This document shows positions 16,777 through 33,160 of a stretch of DNA of 33,329 nt, piece after piece. The notes under the pieces are model-generated. The model was not told where the DNA came from and did not search any database. It saw only the letters and a list, made by a program, of their open reading frames with translations. A program made the translations under genes and the position numbers. The DNA comes from a candidate division Zixibacteria bacterium CG_4_9_14_3_um_filter_46_8. Its GTDB lineage: Bacteria > Zixibacteria > MSB-5A5 > UM-FILTER-46-8. The stretch spans positions 1-33,329 of the forward strand of contig PFXJ01000024.1 in the NCBI GenBank assembly GCA_002791595.1, written 5' to 3'. The first letter of the stretch is position 1. Each line of letters starts with the position of its first letter.

Positions 16777-19419
16777 CTATCGAACTCCGGTTTCACTTGC
16801 TTTTCGATTTGACTCAAGCCGTCTGAATATCACCTCATCACCAGATAAAATCGCCTCATATTCAGATTCCGGCTTTATCACACCAGATAATATGCCTTTT
16901 GAAAGCGGCTTGGTCAAGAGTTTATCGAGGGCGCGTTTCAACGGCCTGGCGCCCAGCGATGGATCGAATCCCCGGCTGGCAATCAATTCCTTTACTTCGT
17001 CAGAAACTCTCAAGGTGATTTCCTTTTCAGACAGGCGCTCATTCAAATAAACAAGCTGTATGTCAATGATAGCTTTGATATTCTGCCGGTTCAAGGCGCG
17101 GAATACAATTATATCATCGATGCGATTCAAGAATTCCGGGCGAAAATGTTTGTTTATCAATGGCATCAGCTCGGATTTCATTTCGCGATAAATATCATCT
17201 TCGTTGCCTGGCTTGATCATTTTGGATTTCTCCATAATATATTCCGAGCCGATATTGGAGGTCATAATGAAGATGCAGTTTCTGAAATTGACGGTGCGTC
17301 CCTGGCTGTCAGTCAATCGGCCTTCATCGAACGCCTGCAGAAGCACATTGGATACTTCCGGATGCGCCTTCTCAATCTCATCGAGCAAGACCACCGAATA
17401 GGGGCGGCGCCGCACTACTTCAGTCAACTGTCCCCCTTCTTCATATCCAACATAGCCGGGAGGCGCGCCGATTAAACGCGAGACCGAAAATTTCTCCATA
17501 TATTCGGACATATCGATGCGCGCAACCGCATTCAGGTCATCGAACAACGAAAGCGCCAATGTCTTGGCCAGCTCGGTTTTGCCGACTCCGGTTGGACCCA
17601 GAAATAGGAATACTCCTGCCGGTTTATTCGGATCAGACAAACCGGCGCGGGAACTTCGTACAACTTCGGAAACCGCTTCCACCGCCTCCGGTTGCCCCAC
17701 AACCCTGCGAGTCAGTTCATCCTCCAGCTTGAGCAACTTTTCCGATTCAGCTTCTGTAAGTCGTGTAACCGGAATGCCGGTCCATTTGCTTACCGCATCT
17801 GCGATATCCTCCGCATCCACTTCCTCCTTCAACAGCTTCTTTTCTTTCTGGACTTCCGCCAAAGTTCTCGAATCTTTCTCGATATTTTTCTCCAGCTCTC
17901 GTATTTCCCCATAGCGTAATCTGGCGGCGCGTTCATAATCGGCGGTTTTTTCAGCGCGGTCTGCGTTGAGCTTCGCCTTCTCGATTTTTTCCTTGTTATC
18001 CCGCATACGGGTCATCAACAGCTTCTCGGTCTGAAGTTGTTGACTGAGCGCTTTTTCGGTTTTGCGAAGCTCCACAAGTTCCTCTTCAATCTCCTTTAGG
18101 TTGCTTCCATCGTTTTTCTCTCTTTTAATCCCCTCGCGTTCGATTTCCAGCCGCCGAATTCTCTTGACGATTTCATCCAACTCTTCAGGCATGCTGTCGA
18201 TATTGATGCGCAAATCAGCCGCCGCTTCATCCACGAGGTCGATTGCCTTATCCGGCAGAAATCTATCCGCAATATATCTATCCGACAATTTAGCCGCGGC
18301 AATCAGCGCTTCATCGCGGATCTTGACACCGTGATGAATCTCATACCGTTCCTTCAATCCCCTAAGAATCGAAACCGTATCCTCCACCGATGGAGGATTG
18401 ACCACTACCGGCGCGAAACGACGTTCCAAGGCGGCATCTTTCTCGATATTTTTCCGATATTCATCCAGAGTAGTTGCGCCTATGCAACGAAGATCTCCTC
18501 GCGCCAATGCCGGTTTGAGCATATTGGAAGCATCCATCGCTCCGCCAACCGCACCGGCGCCGACAATGGTGTGAAGCTCATCTATGAACAGGACAATATG
18601 TCCTTGAGATTTCTCCACTTCTTTGATTATTGCCTTAAGACGCTCTTCGAACTCCCCACGGAATTTGGAGCCAGCCAATAGCGATCCGAGATCAAGCGAA
18701 ATCAGCTTGCGATCCTTGAGAGATTCGGGGACATCGTTATTGAAAATCTTTTGCGCCAGACCTTCTACAATAGCGGTCTTGCCGACGCCCGGCTCGCCAA
18801 TTAATACTGGGTTATTTTTGGTTCTGCGGGAAAGGATTTTTATGACGCGGCGGATTTCTTCATCACGGCCGATGACCGGATCAAGTTTGCCCTTAGAGGC
18901 GAGGTCTGTCAAGTCCCGGCTATATTTTTCCAAAACCTTATATTTATTTTCAGGTTCCTGATCGGTAACGCGCTGGTTTCCACGGATCTCCGTTAAAGCC
19001 TGCAGTAATTTCTCCCGGGTTACACCGGCTTCAATGAGTATCCGAGAAACTTTCCTGGATTGGGCATCAAGCAAAGCTAACAGCAGATGCTCTACCGAGA
19101 TGAATTCATCCTTAAATTGCTCAGCCTCGACGCCGGCCCTTTCAAGCATCTGGCGGAGGTTGCTTGAGATATAGGATTGACCGAATCCGGAGCCGGTAAC
19201 TTTGGGAAGAAGCCCGATCTCTTCCCCGATTTTCGCTGTAATCGCCGAGGGAGACGCGCCGCAACGGGAAATAATATCTGAGACCAGCGAATCTTCCTGC
19301 TCCAGCAAGGCCAACAAGAGATGCTCCGATTCTATCTGCTGGTTGCCATTCGATTGCGCCATCTCGGCGGCATACTGAAGGGCATCCTGAGACTTCTGAG
19401 TCAATTTGTCCAAACGCAT
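16777..19419 (-). CDS. clpB: ATP-dependent disaggregase ClpB
   Basis: The 880-residue protein is full-length ClpB. It has the two-repeat N domain (1-145), NBD1 with Walker A GEPGVGKT (208-215) and LFIDELHTI, a long coiled-coil M domain at about 405-525 rich in E/K/R, then NBD2 with [23 protein letters not shown] and the C-terminal substrate-handling domain. The M domain separates it from ClpC and ClpA. The hexamer pulls proteins out of aggregates, working with DnaK, which is encoded at 21515-23425. It starts 7 bases after rnhC and is the last gene of a J-domain/rnhC/clpB operon. Confidence 0.97.
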
Positions 19420-19426
19420 AAAATTA

Positions 19427-20335
19427 TTACTCCATCAGATCGGGCTGAATAACATATTGAGTCGTCTTGAAATGTAGCTTGGCGTACATCCCGAGTTGCT
19501 CTCTGCCCAATTTATCGATAATTTCCCGTCCCGGGGCAAAAACCGCATTCGAGCAGCCCTTGGGCAATTTTATCCCCGAGCGTTTCGAGAGTTCATCCAA
19601 ACTTGTCAGAAATTCGGCTCGCGCCAGAATGGATGCCGCCGCCACTGCGACATCAGATTCGGCCCTATGCCTTTCCCGTAAATCCACATTCTTCCCCTTC
19701 TCAAATAGCGCCCTTCTCAATTCGTCCTTCATAGAAAATTTATCGGAAATAGCGACTTTGAAATTTCCCTTTTGCAACACATTTTCCAGTGCCCGGGCAT
19801 GTCCCCATGCCAACAGGCGATTCAAATTCCTGAATTTATCATAGAGCTCATTATACTTAGTCGGGCAAATGGCGATCACATCATATTTGCAGGTCGCTTT
19901 CACTTTGTCTGCAATTTTGATAACGCTCCTATCGCTGATCAATTTGCTATCGCCAACACCTGAAGTCAATAATTCAATCTCATTGTGGCCTTCGACGCCA
20001 GCCGCGGCAATTACCAGCGGACCGAAATAGTCTCCCTTACCTGCTTCGTCTATCCCCACGCGGGATTCGCATTTTGTCTCTTGGCGCGCATACTCGATAA
20101 TCCCATGGATTATGCGCGCTTGACCTTTCTCCATAAATATTGATGAGGAATCCCCGTTCGCTTTAAGATAAACATCGATTACAGTCTCATTCTCATCTCC
20201 CGTAGTTAGGAAATATTTCCAAAGCATGCCCCCATTGAATATCCGCTTCTCGAATGGAAAACTGTTATCGCTGGCAAAGGTTTCTATAATCTTGGCGGCC
20301 TCCTCTGCACGGTATTTGAAATCAATTTTATCCAT
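19427..20335 (-). CDS. rnhC: Ribonuclease HIII
   Basis: The 302-residue product has an N-terminal TBP-like substrate-binding domain (about 1-85) and a C-terminal RNase H fold with the signature [16 protein letters not shown]96 and E97 start the catalytic set and the GKGDYFGPL form distinguishes type HIII from HII. Further along are VGDSKLISD and [20 protein letters not shown]. It cuts the RNA strand of RNA-DNA hybrids. Its start overlaps the stop of the upstream J-domain gene in the pattern TGATG, and clpB follows 7 bases later, an unusual coupling of a hybrid-removing nuclease to chaperones. Confidence 0.93.
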
Positions 20336-20925
20336 CAGGTTATTCTCAATTCCACCTCATAGCCGTCGTAGCTGAAGCTGGTCTTGTCCCCAGCCTCCAG
20401 ATCGTTGCCGCATTCAAATGGCAAAAGAAGCTCCATCTTAATTATGCCGCTACCTCTGCAATTCGGGCAATTCCCCATCCATCCTCCCAAGCCTATACAG
20501 GATGGGCAGGTCTTTTCTATTTCAGGGGCCAGGACAATAATATCATCGGTGTTCCTTTTGATTCTATCGGCATCAACCTCGATAAATAATATGCCCCTGC
20601 TCCTCTTGTCAAATGCCTGCTTCACAGCAGTCTTGATGTCATCATACAGGTCAGTAAGGGGCCTGCGAATGGCTGTCGGTAAGGTTATCCTGTAAAATCG
20701 GCCATTTAATTTTCTCAACCCCAACCTCGAATCATAATCGGCCCGGCGCCCGGGATCACTTAAGATGTCGAATCCATCTTTTATCAGGACAAAATCTGCC
20801 TCATGGCCCCCATGGTCGGGATGGTTGTCTTTCACTTTCTGCCGGTATGCGGATTTTAATTGCTCCAGATCGCACCCATATTCGCAACCCAATATTTGAT
20901 AGTAATCATGCATCGTCGATACCAT
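20335..20925 (-). CDS. J-domain co-chaperone with a single half zinc finger
   Basis: The 196-residue product begins with a J domain (DYYQILG, the HPD tripeptide at 35-37, then FDILSDPGRRADYDS), which stimulates ATP hydrolysis by DnaK. The canonical DnaJ G/F linker is missing. The C-terminal part has only one zinc pair, C140-PS-C143 and C153-PN-C156 followed by RGSG, instead of the four CxxCxGxG repeats of DnaJ, and a short C-terminal beta region. It is thus a specialised DnaJ-like protein rather than DnaJ. It heads the operon with rnhC and clpB. An ATG 12 bases further in (20913) is an alternative start. Confidence 0.85.
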   Translation of the reverse strand: MVSTMHDYYQILGCEYGCDLEQLKSAYRQKVKDNHPDHGGHEADFVLIKDGFDILSDPGRRADYDSRLGLRKLNGRFYRITLPTAIRRPLTDLYDDIKTAVKQAFDKRSRGILFIEVDADRIKRNTDDIIVLAPEIEKTCPSCIGLGGWMGNCPNCRGSGIIKMELLLPFECGNDLEAGDKTSFSYDGYEVELRIT

Positions 20926-21514: not shown

Positions 21515-23425
21515 TCAATTCACTACCTCATAATCAGCATCGACCGCTTTGCCGCCTTTTTCGCCCGATGTTTCGGTCTGAGTCTGTTGTTGACTGCCTG
21601 TTTGACTGGCGGAATGTTGCCCGGCTTGCTGTTGATACATTTTCGATGAAGCCTGATGCCAGACTTGCTGAAGCGATTCAGTTGCTGATTTGATTTCGCT
21701 AATATCATCGCCTTTCAGCGCCCCTTTAAGCCTGTCGGCGGCCGCCTGAACTCCGGCACGTGTATCGGCATCGATTTTGTCCTGGAATTCCTTCAGTTGT
21801 TTTTCAGTCTGATATACAAGTTGATCGGCGTTGTTGCGGGCATCGATGACTTCCCGACGCTTCTTATCCTCTGCCTCGTTCGACTTGGCATCATTAACCA
21901 TTTTCTTGATTTCCTGCTCCGTTAAGCCACTGGAAGCTTCTATGCGAATCGATTGCTCCTTGCCGGTGGCTTTATCCTTGGCGGCAACTTTAAGAATGCC
22001 GTTGGCATCAATATCAAAGGCAACCTCAATCTGCGGAATTCCCCTTGGCGCCGGCGGAATCCCATCAAGATGGAATCTGCCGATGGTTTTGTTATTAATC
22101 GCCATTTCACGTTCGCCCTGCAAAATATGCACCTCAACCGATGTTTGGCTATCGCCGGCCGTTGAGAAAACTTCAGATTTTTTGGTCGGGATAGTAGTGT
22201 TTCTCTCAATCAAACGGGTGAACACTCCGCCCAAAGTCTCTATCCCCAGCGAAAGCGGCGTAACGTCCAACAGAAGGACATCTTTCACATCGCCAGCCAA
22301 GACTCCCCCCTGAATGGCCGCGCCTACCGCCACTACCTCATCGGGATTGACACCCTTATGCGGCTCTTTGCCAAACAATTCTTTCACAACTTGCTGAACT
22401 CTGGGCATACGGGTCATCCCGCCGACCATAACCACCTCATCTATTTGAGAAGCGGGAAGCCCTGCATCGTCCAAAGCCCGTTTCACCGGTCCGATGCTTC
22501 TCTCGATAAGGTCATCAACCAACTGCTCGAATTTGGCACGGGACAATATCATATTAAGATGCTTGGGCCCATTGGCATCGGCGGTTATGAATGGCAGATT
22601 GATGGTCGTTTCCATCGTGGATGAAAGCTCTATCTTTGCCTTTTCCGCCGCTTCCTTCAATCTCTGAAGCGCCATCGGATCCTTTGACAAATCTATTCCG
22701 TCCGACTTACGGAACTCATCGACCAGCCAATCGATGATGCGCTTGTCGAAGTCATCTCCTCCCAGATGTGTATCACCATTGGTGGATTTGACTTCGAAAA
22801 CGCCATCTCCCAATTCGAGAATCGAAATGTCAAAAGTGCCGCCCCCAAGGTCATAGACTGCAATCTTCTCGTCCTTTTTTTTGTCCAGACCGTAGGCGAG
22901 CGATGCCGCGGTTGGTTCATTGATTATTCTCAAGACCTCCAACCCGGCAATCCTCCCCGCATCTTTGGTCGCCTGACGCTGGGAGTCATTGAAATACGCC
23001 GGCACCGTTATCACCGCTTTGGTGACTTTCTGGCCAAGATAATCCTCCGCGGTCTTCTTCATCTTCTGCAACACCAGCGCCGAAATTTCCGGCGGAGAAT
23101 ATTGATTCCCCTCAATCTCTATTCGAGCGTCGCCATTCGGCCCTTTGACCACTTTATACGGGAAATTCTTAATTTCCTCGATTACCTCATCATACTTGCG
23201 TCCCATAAACCGCTTGACCGAGAAGATCGTGTTCAGCGGATTGGTGATCGCCTGACGCTTGGCTATTTGCCCCATTAACTTCTCGCCATTCTTGGCAAAT
23301 CCGACCACAGATGGCGTGGTGCGGCTCCCTTCTGAATTATTTATCACGACCGGGTCCCCACCTTCCATCACTGCCACGCAGGAGTTGGTGGTCCCCAAAT
23401 CGATTCCTATGATTTTATCTGACAT
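21515..23425 (-). CDS. dnaK: Molecular chaperone DnaK (Hsp70)
   Basis: The 636-residue protein is full-length Hsp70: [14 protein letters not shown] phosphate-binding loop, [53 protein letters not shown], then the linker [19 protein letters not shown] and the peptide-binding domain. The end is a Q-rich segment with DADYEVVN in place of the common EEVD-like end. A strong GGAGGAG lies 7 bases before ATG and is located inside the end of the preceding gene, which overlaps by 11 bases. No grpE or canonical dnaJ is nearby. No CIRCE element is visible upstream. Confidence 0.97.
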
Positions 23426-24317
23426 GATTTGTCTCCTCCTTTATTTCAAATCTAATTTCGCCTTCGCCTCTGATGGGTATCATATTCCTAATCTCTTTGC
23501 TCGACAGAATTTGCTCAGGCAATGGATTTTCTGCGTCTGGTAGCCGCATCAATGTGGGTGGCATCTCTGGTGACACACGCGGGTGAAATACTATGACTCC
23601 GCCTAGCCACTTATGTCTCTCTCCCCGCAATTCCGCTCCTGCGGGATCGATTGCCAATTCGAGGTGGCGTTTGGTCGAGCCTGAGGGAGGCCAGAGGATG
23701 TCGAACTTGCCAAATAACTCCTTCAAGGCACCATCGTCCAGAGGAGGGCCATTCCGATGGACAATTGCAATTACGGTTGGCAAGCCCGGGTATTTTTTCA
23801 CCTGCTCCCTAGTTCTTCCTATTATCTCGTGAAACCACCCCTTGAAATATACTGGCTCTCCACCTCGTTTTCGACCGATGTGGCAAGGGGTTGTGCGGGC
23901 CTCACGAATTTGAAAATCCATAACCTCTATTTCCACTCTACCCTTGAGAAAGCCCACTCTGTGCCCAGGTCTTCTATTCTCTATATTGGAAAAATGCCTT
24001 TTGTATTCCGCGAGCAACCTCTTATAATCGCAAGCCTCCGGGCGCTGGCAAAAATCATAAGAAACAAAAATAGCAATTGGAATTGTTGACTTCTGCAGCG
24101 TGTGCTCGATCTCATTCTGTATTCTCTCATTCGCTCGCCCATCATTGAAATGCTCTTTTGTTTTCACTTCGACTATGAATTCGTCCTTGCCTTTTACTGC
24201 TTTATAGTCAGGCTTCTTTTGACTCGTATCATTGCCATCATCAATTCGGATAACCTGGTATCCTTTTCCTTCAAGAAATTCTCTGACATATTTTTCGTCT
24301 ATGTTCTCTTGATGCAT
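23415..24317 (-). CDS. PD-(D/E)XK nuclease-like protein of unknown function, overlapping dnaK
   Basis: From ATG 24317 the product is 300 residues. GGAG lies 5 bases upstream of this ATG, which makes it better than the TTG six codons earlier. The N-terminal 55 residues read like a PD-(D/E)XK nuclease: KKPDYK with D37, then [10 protein letters not shown] with E50 and K52, after a strand-helix opening. The remainder ([53 protein letters not shown]) is not recognised but looks like one domain that could be a sensor or binding part. It shares a transcript with dnaK and overlaps it by 11 bases. The sequence alone does not say whether it cuts DNA. Confidence 0.7.
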
Positions 24318-24337
24318 CACAACTCCATTTGACAATT

Positions 24338-24594: not shown

Positions 24595-25032
24595 TTACGC
24601 CGCTTCGATCGCGATCTCTTTGGGCTTAGCCGCTTCGACCTTGGGCAGACTGATGGACAGAATGCCATCCTTGTAGTTCGCCTTGATTTTGGACGAATCG
24701 ATAGTCGAAGGCAGTGAGAACGATCTGCAGAAAGAACCATACATCCTTTCATTGCGGAAGTAGTTGTCCTTCTCATCGTTCTTCTCCTGTTTCTTCTCAC
24801 CGGTGATGGTCAAAGTGCCATTGTTGACCGTGAGCCTTACATCATCTTTATTGATGCCGGGGATTTCAGCTCTGACCACGATGTTCTGATCGTTCTCGCT
24901 GATATCCACTGCCGGAGCCCAATTGCATCTGAATCCAGGCCAATCCTCTTCATTGGCGAAGTTCTTGACCATCCGATCCATATATTCCCAAGGGCTCAAA
25001 TCGTTTCTGCTTCTGAATTTTACGAGTGTCAT
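24595..25032 (-). CDS. Small heat shock protein Hsp20
   Basis: The 145-residue product has the alpha-crystallin domain from about 40 to 140: PAVDISENDQNIVVRAEIPG, LTVNNGTLTITGEKK, YGSFCRSFSLP and the G-x-L motif DGILSISLPK. The short N-terminal arm (SPWEYMDRMVKNF) and C-terminal KEIAIEA with an IxI/V element are as in bacterial class A proteins. It forms oligomers that hold unfolding proteins for DnaK and ClpB. GGAGAT lies 6 bases before ATG. Expression appears to depend on sigma-54, judged from the element at 25098-25114. Confidence 0.95.
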   Translation of the reverse strand: MTLVKFRSRNDLSPWEYMDRMVKNFANEEDWPGFRCNWAPAVDISENDQNIVVRAEIPGINKDDVRLTVNNGTLTITGEKKQEKNDEKDNYFRNERMYGSFCRSFSLPSTIDSSKIKANYKDGILSISLPKVEAAKPKEIAIEAA

Positions 25033-25097
25033 TTTGATATCTCCTTTTTTGAAGTTTTATTTTTCGTTTGATCCTTATCGAATCCAACTTTGTATAA

Positions 25098-25114
25098 AGC
25101 AACTTCCGTGCCAA
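25098..25114 (-). promoter_or_regulatory. Perfect sigma-54 (-24/-12) promoter of hsp20
   Basis: On the minus strand the sequence is TTGGCACGGAAGTTGCT. It matches the sigma-54 consensus TGGCACG-N4-TTGCW at every conserved position, with exactly 10 bases between the GG and GC doublets. The transcript would start near 25087, leaving a 55-base leader before the hsp20 ATG. Sigma-54 promoters need an ATP-driven activator, which fits the upstream repeats. Confidence 0.82.
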
Positions 25115-25142
25115 TTACGAAATATTATGTTATCTCATTATC

Positions 25143-25155
25143 AATCAATTGATTG
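25143..25155. promoter_or_regulatory. IHF-type site between hsp20 promoter and upstream repeats
   Basis: AATCAATTGATTG matches the IHF consensus WATCAA-N4-TTR, at about -56 to -68 from the predicted start. It is part of a 14-bp perfect palindrome (25142-25155). A DNA-bending site is usual here in sigma-54 promoters, but the match is short and could be chance. Confidence 0.45.
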
Positions 25156-25182
25156 GGACGGATTCACCATTTTTGGAATGCC

Positions 25183-25267
25183 TGCCATATTAGTAGCATA
25201 CTATGCCATATTGGCTTATTCGACCTTGTCATTATGTCAATATGGCCAAACTACTGCCAAATTAGCA
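25183..25267. promoter_or_regulatory. Four helically phased 13-bp dyads, candidate enhancer sites of hsp20
   Basis: Four copies of TGCCAWATTRGCA are seen: 25183-25195, 25204-25216, 25235-25247 (inverted, two mismatches) and 25255-25267. The motif has dyad symmetry TGC-N7-GCA. Centres are 21, 31 and 20 bases apart, close to 2, 3 and 2 turns of DNA, so all would face the same side. They lie about 96-180 bases upstream of the sigma-54 start, the normal place for an activator. No other gene needs this 380-base gap, and the rest of it (25268-25412) shows nothing else. Confidence 0.6.
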
Positions 25268-32587: not shown

Positions 32588-32713
32588 ATATTTCGGCGGG
32601 TGATGATCAGATGAATTGTGGATTAACTATTTGGTCTGTCTGCTGGGGGCGACGGCTAAGGGATGTCCGGCACATTGCCGGCGATATCATTATGGGATCT
32701 GTGGAGGAAAGCA

Positions 32714-33160
32714 ATGGAGAATTATGAAAATGGCCAGTCAAGACGAAGTTTTCTGAATTGGTTGCTGGTGGGCGGATTTGGGTCTCTGGCGGCGGCTACA
32801 ATCTATCCACTGGTTAGATTCATTTATCCTCCCGAACTGCCGCAGGCGGTGCAAAATAGCGTGGTGGCGGCAAAAACCGGAGAAATGCCACCGAATTCCG
32901 GCAAGATTTTCAAATTTGGCACCAAACCCGGGATACTGATTCGCACCAAAGGCGATGAATATCGGGCGTTTTCAGCAGTATGCACGCATCTTCAGTGCGC
33001 AGTACAATACGAAGAATCTCGGGGTGATATATGGTGTGCCTGCCATAATGGCCGCTTTGATCTATCCGGCAAGAATATATCCGGTCCCCCTCCGGCGCCT
33101 CTGGAGGTTTTCAATGTTGCCATCCGCGGTGAAGAGATTATCGTCAGCAAGAAAGGGTAA
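32714..33160 (+). CDS. Rieske iron-sulfur protein of a cytochrome bc/b6f-type complex
   Basis: The 148-residue product starts with a Tat-type segment (SRRSFLNWLLVGG) and one membrane helix, then a Rieske domain. The 2Fe-2S ligands are C90 and H92 in CTHLQC, and C108 and H111 in CACHNGRF; C95 and C110 would form the usual disulfide. GPPPAPL follows, the conserved proline loop. GGAGG sits 6 bases before ATG 32714, which I prefer to the earlier in-frame codon at 32663. Cytochrome b follows 3 bases later, so the pair encodes a quinol-oxidising complex. Confidence 0.94.
   Translation: MENYENGQSRRSFLNWLLVGGFGSLAAATIYPLVRFIYPPELPQAVQNSVVAAKTGEMPPNSGKIFKFGTKPGILIRTKGDEYRAFSAVCTHLQCAVQYEESRGDIWCACHNGRFDLSGKNISGPPPAPLEVFNVAIRGEEIIVSKKG

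Follow-up and report, generated by a model that had tools for sequence, protein, structure and literature searches.

The small heat-shock gene hsp20 of this Candidatus Zixiibacteriota MAG is likely transcribed by sigma-54 RNA polymerase from a -24/-12 promoter at 25099-25113, under the control of a bEBP that would bind, as dimers, to four CTGYCA-N3-TGRCAG dyads located upstream. The most likely activator is the bEBP whose gene immediately follows that of RNase R on contig C129. Taken as a whole, this is the best explanation of the sequences compared, and we hold it with good confidence. The MAG amounts to 2.73 Mb in 133 contigs, and the window (the whole 33,329-nucleotide stretch that was analysed) lies on contig C22. 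The features of hsp20 and its upstream region are the following.

24595-25032, minus strand: hsp20, small heat-shock protein of the alpha-crystallin family, 145 aa (open reading frame; Pfam HSP20 PF00011, E = 3.5e-26, above the cut-off).
25041-25046, minus strand: AAGGAG ribosome-binding site, 8 nt 5' of the hsp20 ATG (read directly from the sequence).
25087 (about), minus strand: predicted +1 of transcription, at a distance of 12 nt downstream of the -12 C (deduced from where the -24/-12 element lies).
25099-25113, minus strand: predicted sigma-54 promoter, -24/-12 element TGGCACGGAAGTTGC (exact match; the same element is found above the first hsp20 gene phylum-wide).
25143-25155, minus strand: IHF-consensus-like site AATCAATTGATTG, downstream of the dyad array and upstream of the promoter (consensus match; weakly supported).
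25183-25195, no strand assigned: dyad 1, predicted activator site, the closest to the promoter and the weakest (motif score 9.2; equivalent in position to the array of the relatives).
25204-25216, no strand assigned: dyad 2, predicted activator site (motif score 16.7).
25235-25247, no strand assigned: dyad 3, predicted activator site (motif score 13.3).
25255-25267, no strand assigned: dyad 4, predicted activator site (motif score 15.6; exact copy of the 13-mer of the original prediction).

Genes for a clpB-like protein (16777-19419), a dnaJ-like protein (20335-20925) and dnaK (21515-23425) are present near hsp20 in the window. A 306-aa ORF (23415-24335) lies between hsp20 and dnaK; its N-terminal sequence looks nuclease-like by eye, and the ORF has no Pfam match.

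The sequence at 25099-25113 matches the sigma-54 pattern TGGCAC-N5-TTGC exactly, in agreement with the original prediction of a perfect element upstream of hsp20, and the start deduced from it agrees with the figure proposed there. No second exact match occurs within the 33-kb window, and the clpB-like, dnaJ-like and dnaK genes have none. The whole genome contains seven exact matches, versus four for the reversed control pattern, so the motif alone is weak evidence. These counts are what speaks for the idea that the -24/-12 match and the dyads arose by chance, to which we give next to no credence: the comparison across the phylum already refutes it, since the element, the dyads and their spacing are conserved phylum-wide with hsp20 proteins that share no more than 68% identity with that of this genome. 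The case for the putative hsp20 promoter is made by its place and its conservation. A search for rpoN found a 504-aa open frame on C107, with PF00309 above the cut-off. A sigma-70-like match (10/12) at 25260-25231 overlaps the dyads, so that another polymerase could provide basal transcription.

Upstream activator sites of sigma-54 promoters are dyad symmetric and typically located at -80 to -200. The hsp20 promoter has this layout, with four dyads in helical spacing at about -100 to -175 relative to the predicted start; counted from the first T in TGGCAC, their centres lie 76, 97, 128 and 148 bp upstream. The distances between the centres of the four 13-bp dyads (21, 31 and 20 bp, from the promoter-proximal dyad outward) are those originally described, and dyads 1 to 4 have 1, 1, 2 (on the other strand) and 0 mismatches, respectively, to the 13-mer. 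Because they are spaced by two (once three) helical turns, the dyads would face the same way. Four dyads were obtained in none of 2000 mononucleotide shuffles of the hsp20 promoter (mean 0.13), with a matrix that is partly trained on this same promoter. Another dyad, CCTGCCATAATGGCCGC, single and strong (score 17.9), is found at 33041-33053 of the window, within a Rieske-type gene (32663-33160); being coding, it is probably due to chance.

From the dyads, the bEBP would reach the sigma-54 polymerase at the -24/-12 element by DNA looping. The AT-rich, sometimes IHF-like spacer may help looping, possibly through bending by IHF, a weak proposal. The IHF-consensus match predicted at 25143-25155 is indeed present, and 5 of 35 related promoters have such a match, versus 0.43 in shuffles, which is above chance yet not universal; the putative IHF site is thus weakly supported. 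We infer that the rnr-linked bEBP binds the dyads and activates hsp20 through looping, with stress as the signal.

The comparison included 133 genomes, many of the relatives being fragmented MAGs, and the -24/-12 element was sought before the first hsp20 gene. At least two dyads are present 60-200 bp above a -24/-12 element (at most two mismatches) in 76 of 82 hsp20 loci, nearly all of them from relatives across the phylum, and in 64 of these 76 the element has at most one mismatch. The same combination precedes 5 of 604 control ORFs, one of the five overlapping hsp20; this rate is approximate because the controls include spurious ORFs and the ORF that overlaps hsp20. Most of the 42 hsp20 loci examined first carry, immediately upstream of the leading hsp20 gene, a -24/-12 element that deviates from the pattern at no more than one position; 0.04 such elements per 700 bp are expected. 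A word search in 36 promoters led to the consensus CTGYCA-N3-TGRCAG: the commonest dyad word, GCCA-N4-GGCA, occurs in 21 of the 36, versus at most 7 in shuffles. The dyad matrix finds 102 sites over 35 promoters (4.5 in shuffles), and the distance between neighbouring dyads is 20-22 bp in 54 of 69 cases in these promoters.

The dyad matrix overlaps in its data with the first promoters; two results are independent of this overlap. Each of the 40 hsp20 loci outside the training of the matrix, all included in the counts above, has a -24/-12-like element preceded by two or more dyads; this element has at most one mismatch in 32 of the loci, and the dyads mostly lie about 72, 94, 115 and 135 bp away. 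The second result concerns pairs of exact dyads separated by 4-33 bp: they are found at six places in the 133 genomes, each time directly upstream of hsp20 (none in the control). The dyad array is absent at one paralogue of G003 (L095) and at the hsp20 genes of G002 (L096) and G111 (L099), and the latter two also have no good -24/-12 element. The hsp20 proteins compared are only about 35-68% identical to that of this genome, therefore the conservation of the promoter and the dyads is not mere recency. The conservation anticipated by the original prediction thus extends to close and distant relatives. It is this comparison, at the level of sequence, that establishes the predicted promoter, the dyad array, its spacing and the dyad found at the rnr-bEBP operon.

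The activator was not expected in the window, and the eight full bEBPs encoded in the genome are all located elsewhere. The 13-mer of the original prediction has 378 matches in this genome with at most two mismatches, which are mostly noise (2.8 times the control). The relaxed palindrome TGYCANNNTGRCA occurs at 13 places, and the only informative one is at the rnr-bEBP operon. The features on C129 are the following.

C129, 3557-5035, strand not given: candidate activator bEBP, directly downstream of rnr (AAA+ with GAFTGA, Fis-type helix-turn-helix).
C129, 1353-1367, strand not given: single dyad CTGCCATAATGGCAG, about 50 bp before rnr (score 22.2).

The rnr gene encodes RNase R (TIGR02063). 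The regulon in this genome was assessed by pattern searches and in 180 kb of sequence, where the dyad before rnr has the top score. No comparable dyad was found at the other seven bEBP genes, and this is the sole ground on which the other bEBPs are set aside. In 20 relatives, no bEBP gene adjoins hsp20 (BLAST, 1e-20). In the relatives, rnr precedes the bEBP gene in 27 of 30 loci, and 9 of 21 rnr loci have an exact dyad in the corresponding position, this dyad scoring highest within its locus; near-matches occur in two more. The exact dyad is missing in 12 of the 21, of which 10 also score low by the matrix; the bEBP at the loci that have no dyad is of the same kind as at those that bear one. 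In 30 relatives, 36 distinct exact 15-mers were found; 13 of them lie before rnr-bEBP and 7 before hrcA. It appears that the activator of hsp20 is probably the rnr-linked bEBP of C129.

From a site before an operon one can tell that regulation takes place but not by which protein, and seven other bEBPs exist in the genome. The sigma-54 promoter could therefore be genuine and its activator another of the eight bEBPs, which would control rnr-bEBP in a cascade through the rnr dyad. We consider this unlikely: the other seven bEBP genes have no comparable dyad, a full-length match to the rnr-linked bEBP is found in most of the 133 genomes, and its helix-turn-helix, including the recognition helix, is nearly invariant in the alignment of the relatives, as expected for a conserved site. 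The rnr-linked bEBP would probably also bind to the single dyad before its own operon. This dyad has no accompanying -24/-12 element and lies upstream of a TTGACA-like box in several relatives, therefore autoregulation, of either sign, is the simplest reading.

The rnr-linked bEBP matches PF00158, AAA_lid_14 and HTH_8 above the cut-offs, and the GAFTGA loop is seen in the alignment. It reaches no NCBIfam equivalog cut-off among its best 25 matches. Its N-terminal domain has no match to Pfam Response_reg and is predicted to adopt a receiver fold (AlphaFold pLDDT of 85; Foldseek matches to HupR, FrzS and NtrC1). At the end of strand 3, Ser replaces the phospho-acceptor Asp in this genome, where the relatives have Asp. 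Phosphorylation is thus unlikely to be the signal in this genome, since the receiver-like domain has no phospho-acceptor; no kinase was recognised beside the gene. The predicted receiver-like fold, the AAA+ domain, the Fis-type helix-turn-helix and the inverted-repeat sites are as in NtrC, ZraR, HupR and NtrX. Unlike NtrC-type bEBPs, the protein of this genome does not have the phospho-acceptor Asp and is encoded with RNase R.

A canonical CIRCE is present at groESL (C22:45179-45205, L175), on the contig of the window and outside of it. With the pattern TTAGCACTC-N9-GAGTGCTAA and at most two mismatches, it is the only one in this genome, and there is none at hsp20. HrcA therefore presumably governs groESL, and sigma-54 would add a second chaperone circuit beside it: hsp20, which has no CIRCE, would use sigma-54 while HrcA keeps its usual target. 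In seven relatives (L228-L233 and L309, in G023, G028, G030, G031, G044, G048 and G068), dyads are also found ahead of the hrcA start, downstream of a sigma-70-like promoter; the dyad site thus occurs beyond hsp20 and rnr-bEBP. The same exact dyad is also present, in an intergenic position, before a GH35/GH42-like gene in two families (L307 in G119, L316 in G101).

The dyads before hrcA, together with one near the CIRCE of groES in G023, could mean that the dyads are operators of HrcA or of another repressor, hsp20 being a usual repressor-controlled heat-shock gene. This is highly improbable. The dyad is unlike CIRCE, and arrays 70-150 bp above a -24/-12 element, with two-turn spacing, fit activators and not repressors. 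All 15 genomes searched contain CIRCE, 14 of them as an exact match, and wherever the adjacent gene was read it was groESL, which shows that HrcA has its usual operator; HrcA was rejected as the dyad-binding protein, given the presence of CIRCE in the same genomes. If the dyads are bEBP sites, their location at hrcA suggests that, in one family of relatives, the bEBP also regulates the repressor HrcA, and may couple the sigma-54 and HrcA circuits there.

The original prediction considered a sigma-54 switch for a small heat-shock gene uncommon. This holds with a qualification, as sigma-54 control of chaperone genes has precedent, and the putative circuit described here is a variant with a dyad array and a candidate bEBP. 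A sigma-54 promoter has been reported for ibpB of E. coli, also a small heat-shock gene (Kuczynska-Wisnik et al. 2001, cited in PMC8155344); there, this promoter coexists with sigma-32 control. The hsp20 gene studied here differs by its lack of CIRCE, its conserved dyad array and its probable cognate bEBP. For Bacteroidota and Planctomycetota, PMC12316311 predicts sigma-54 promoters at a cluster of chaperone genes, among them COG0071 (IbpA), GroES and GrpE. The passages considered here name neither an activator nor its site, whereas the present circuit is resolved to hsp20, with a predicted site and a candidate bEBP, and groESL retains its CIRCE. The name Zixibacteria is absent from PMC12316311. 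The two-component AtoS-AtoC system likewise connects heat-shock genes with sigma-54 and a bEBP; it concerns another gene, and the passages considered describe no dyad array. A sigma-54 promoter is known or predicted for the hrcA operon of Chlamydia (PMC8762339). Literature searches found no report of this Zixibacteria circuit or of such an RNase R-linked bEBP.

A broader proposal, which we regard as tentative and rather doubtful, is that the rnr-linked bEBP is a conserved regulator of a phylum-wide proteostasis regulon, comprising hsp20, its own gene together with that of RNase R, and also hrcA in one family. Through its degenerate receiver domain, this bEBP would sense protein stress without phosphorylation, and it would connect HrcA and sigma-54 within a heat-shock network of two layers.

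The predicted promoter, its sites and the candidate activator would constitute a concrete sigma-54 chaperone circuit in an uncultured and little-studied phylum, known here from MAGs. This circuit would tie bEBP control of small heat-shock proteins to RNase R and, in one family, to HrcA, and would show how one bEBP can run a near-single-gene stress regulon across a phylum.
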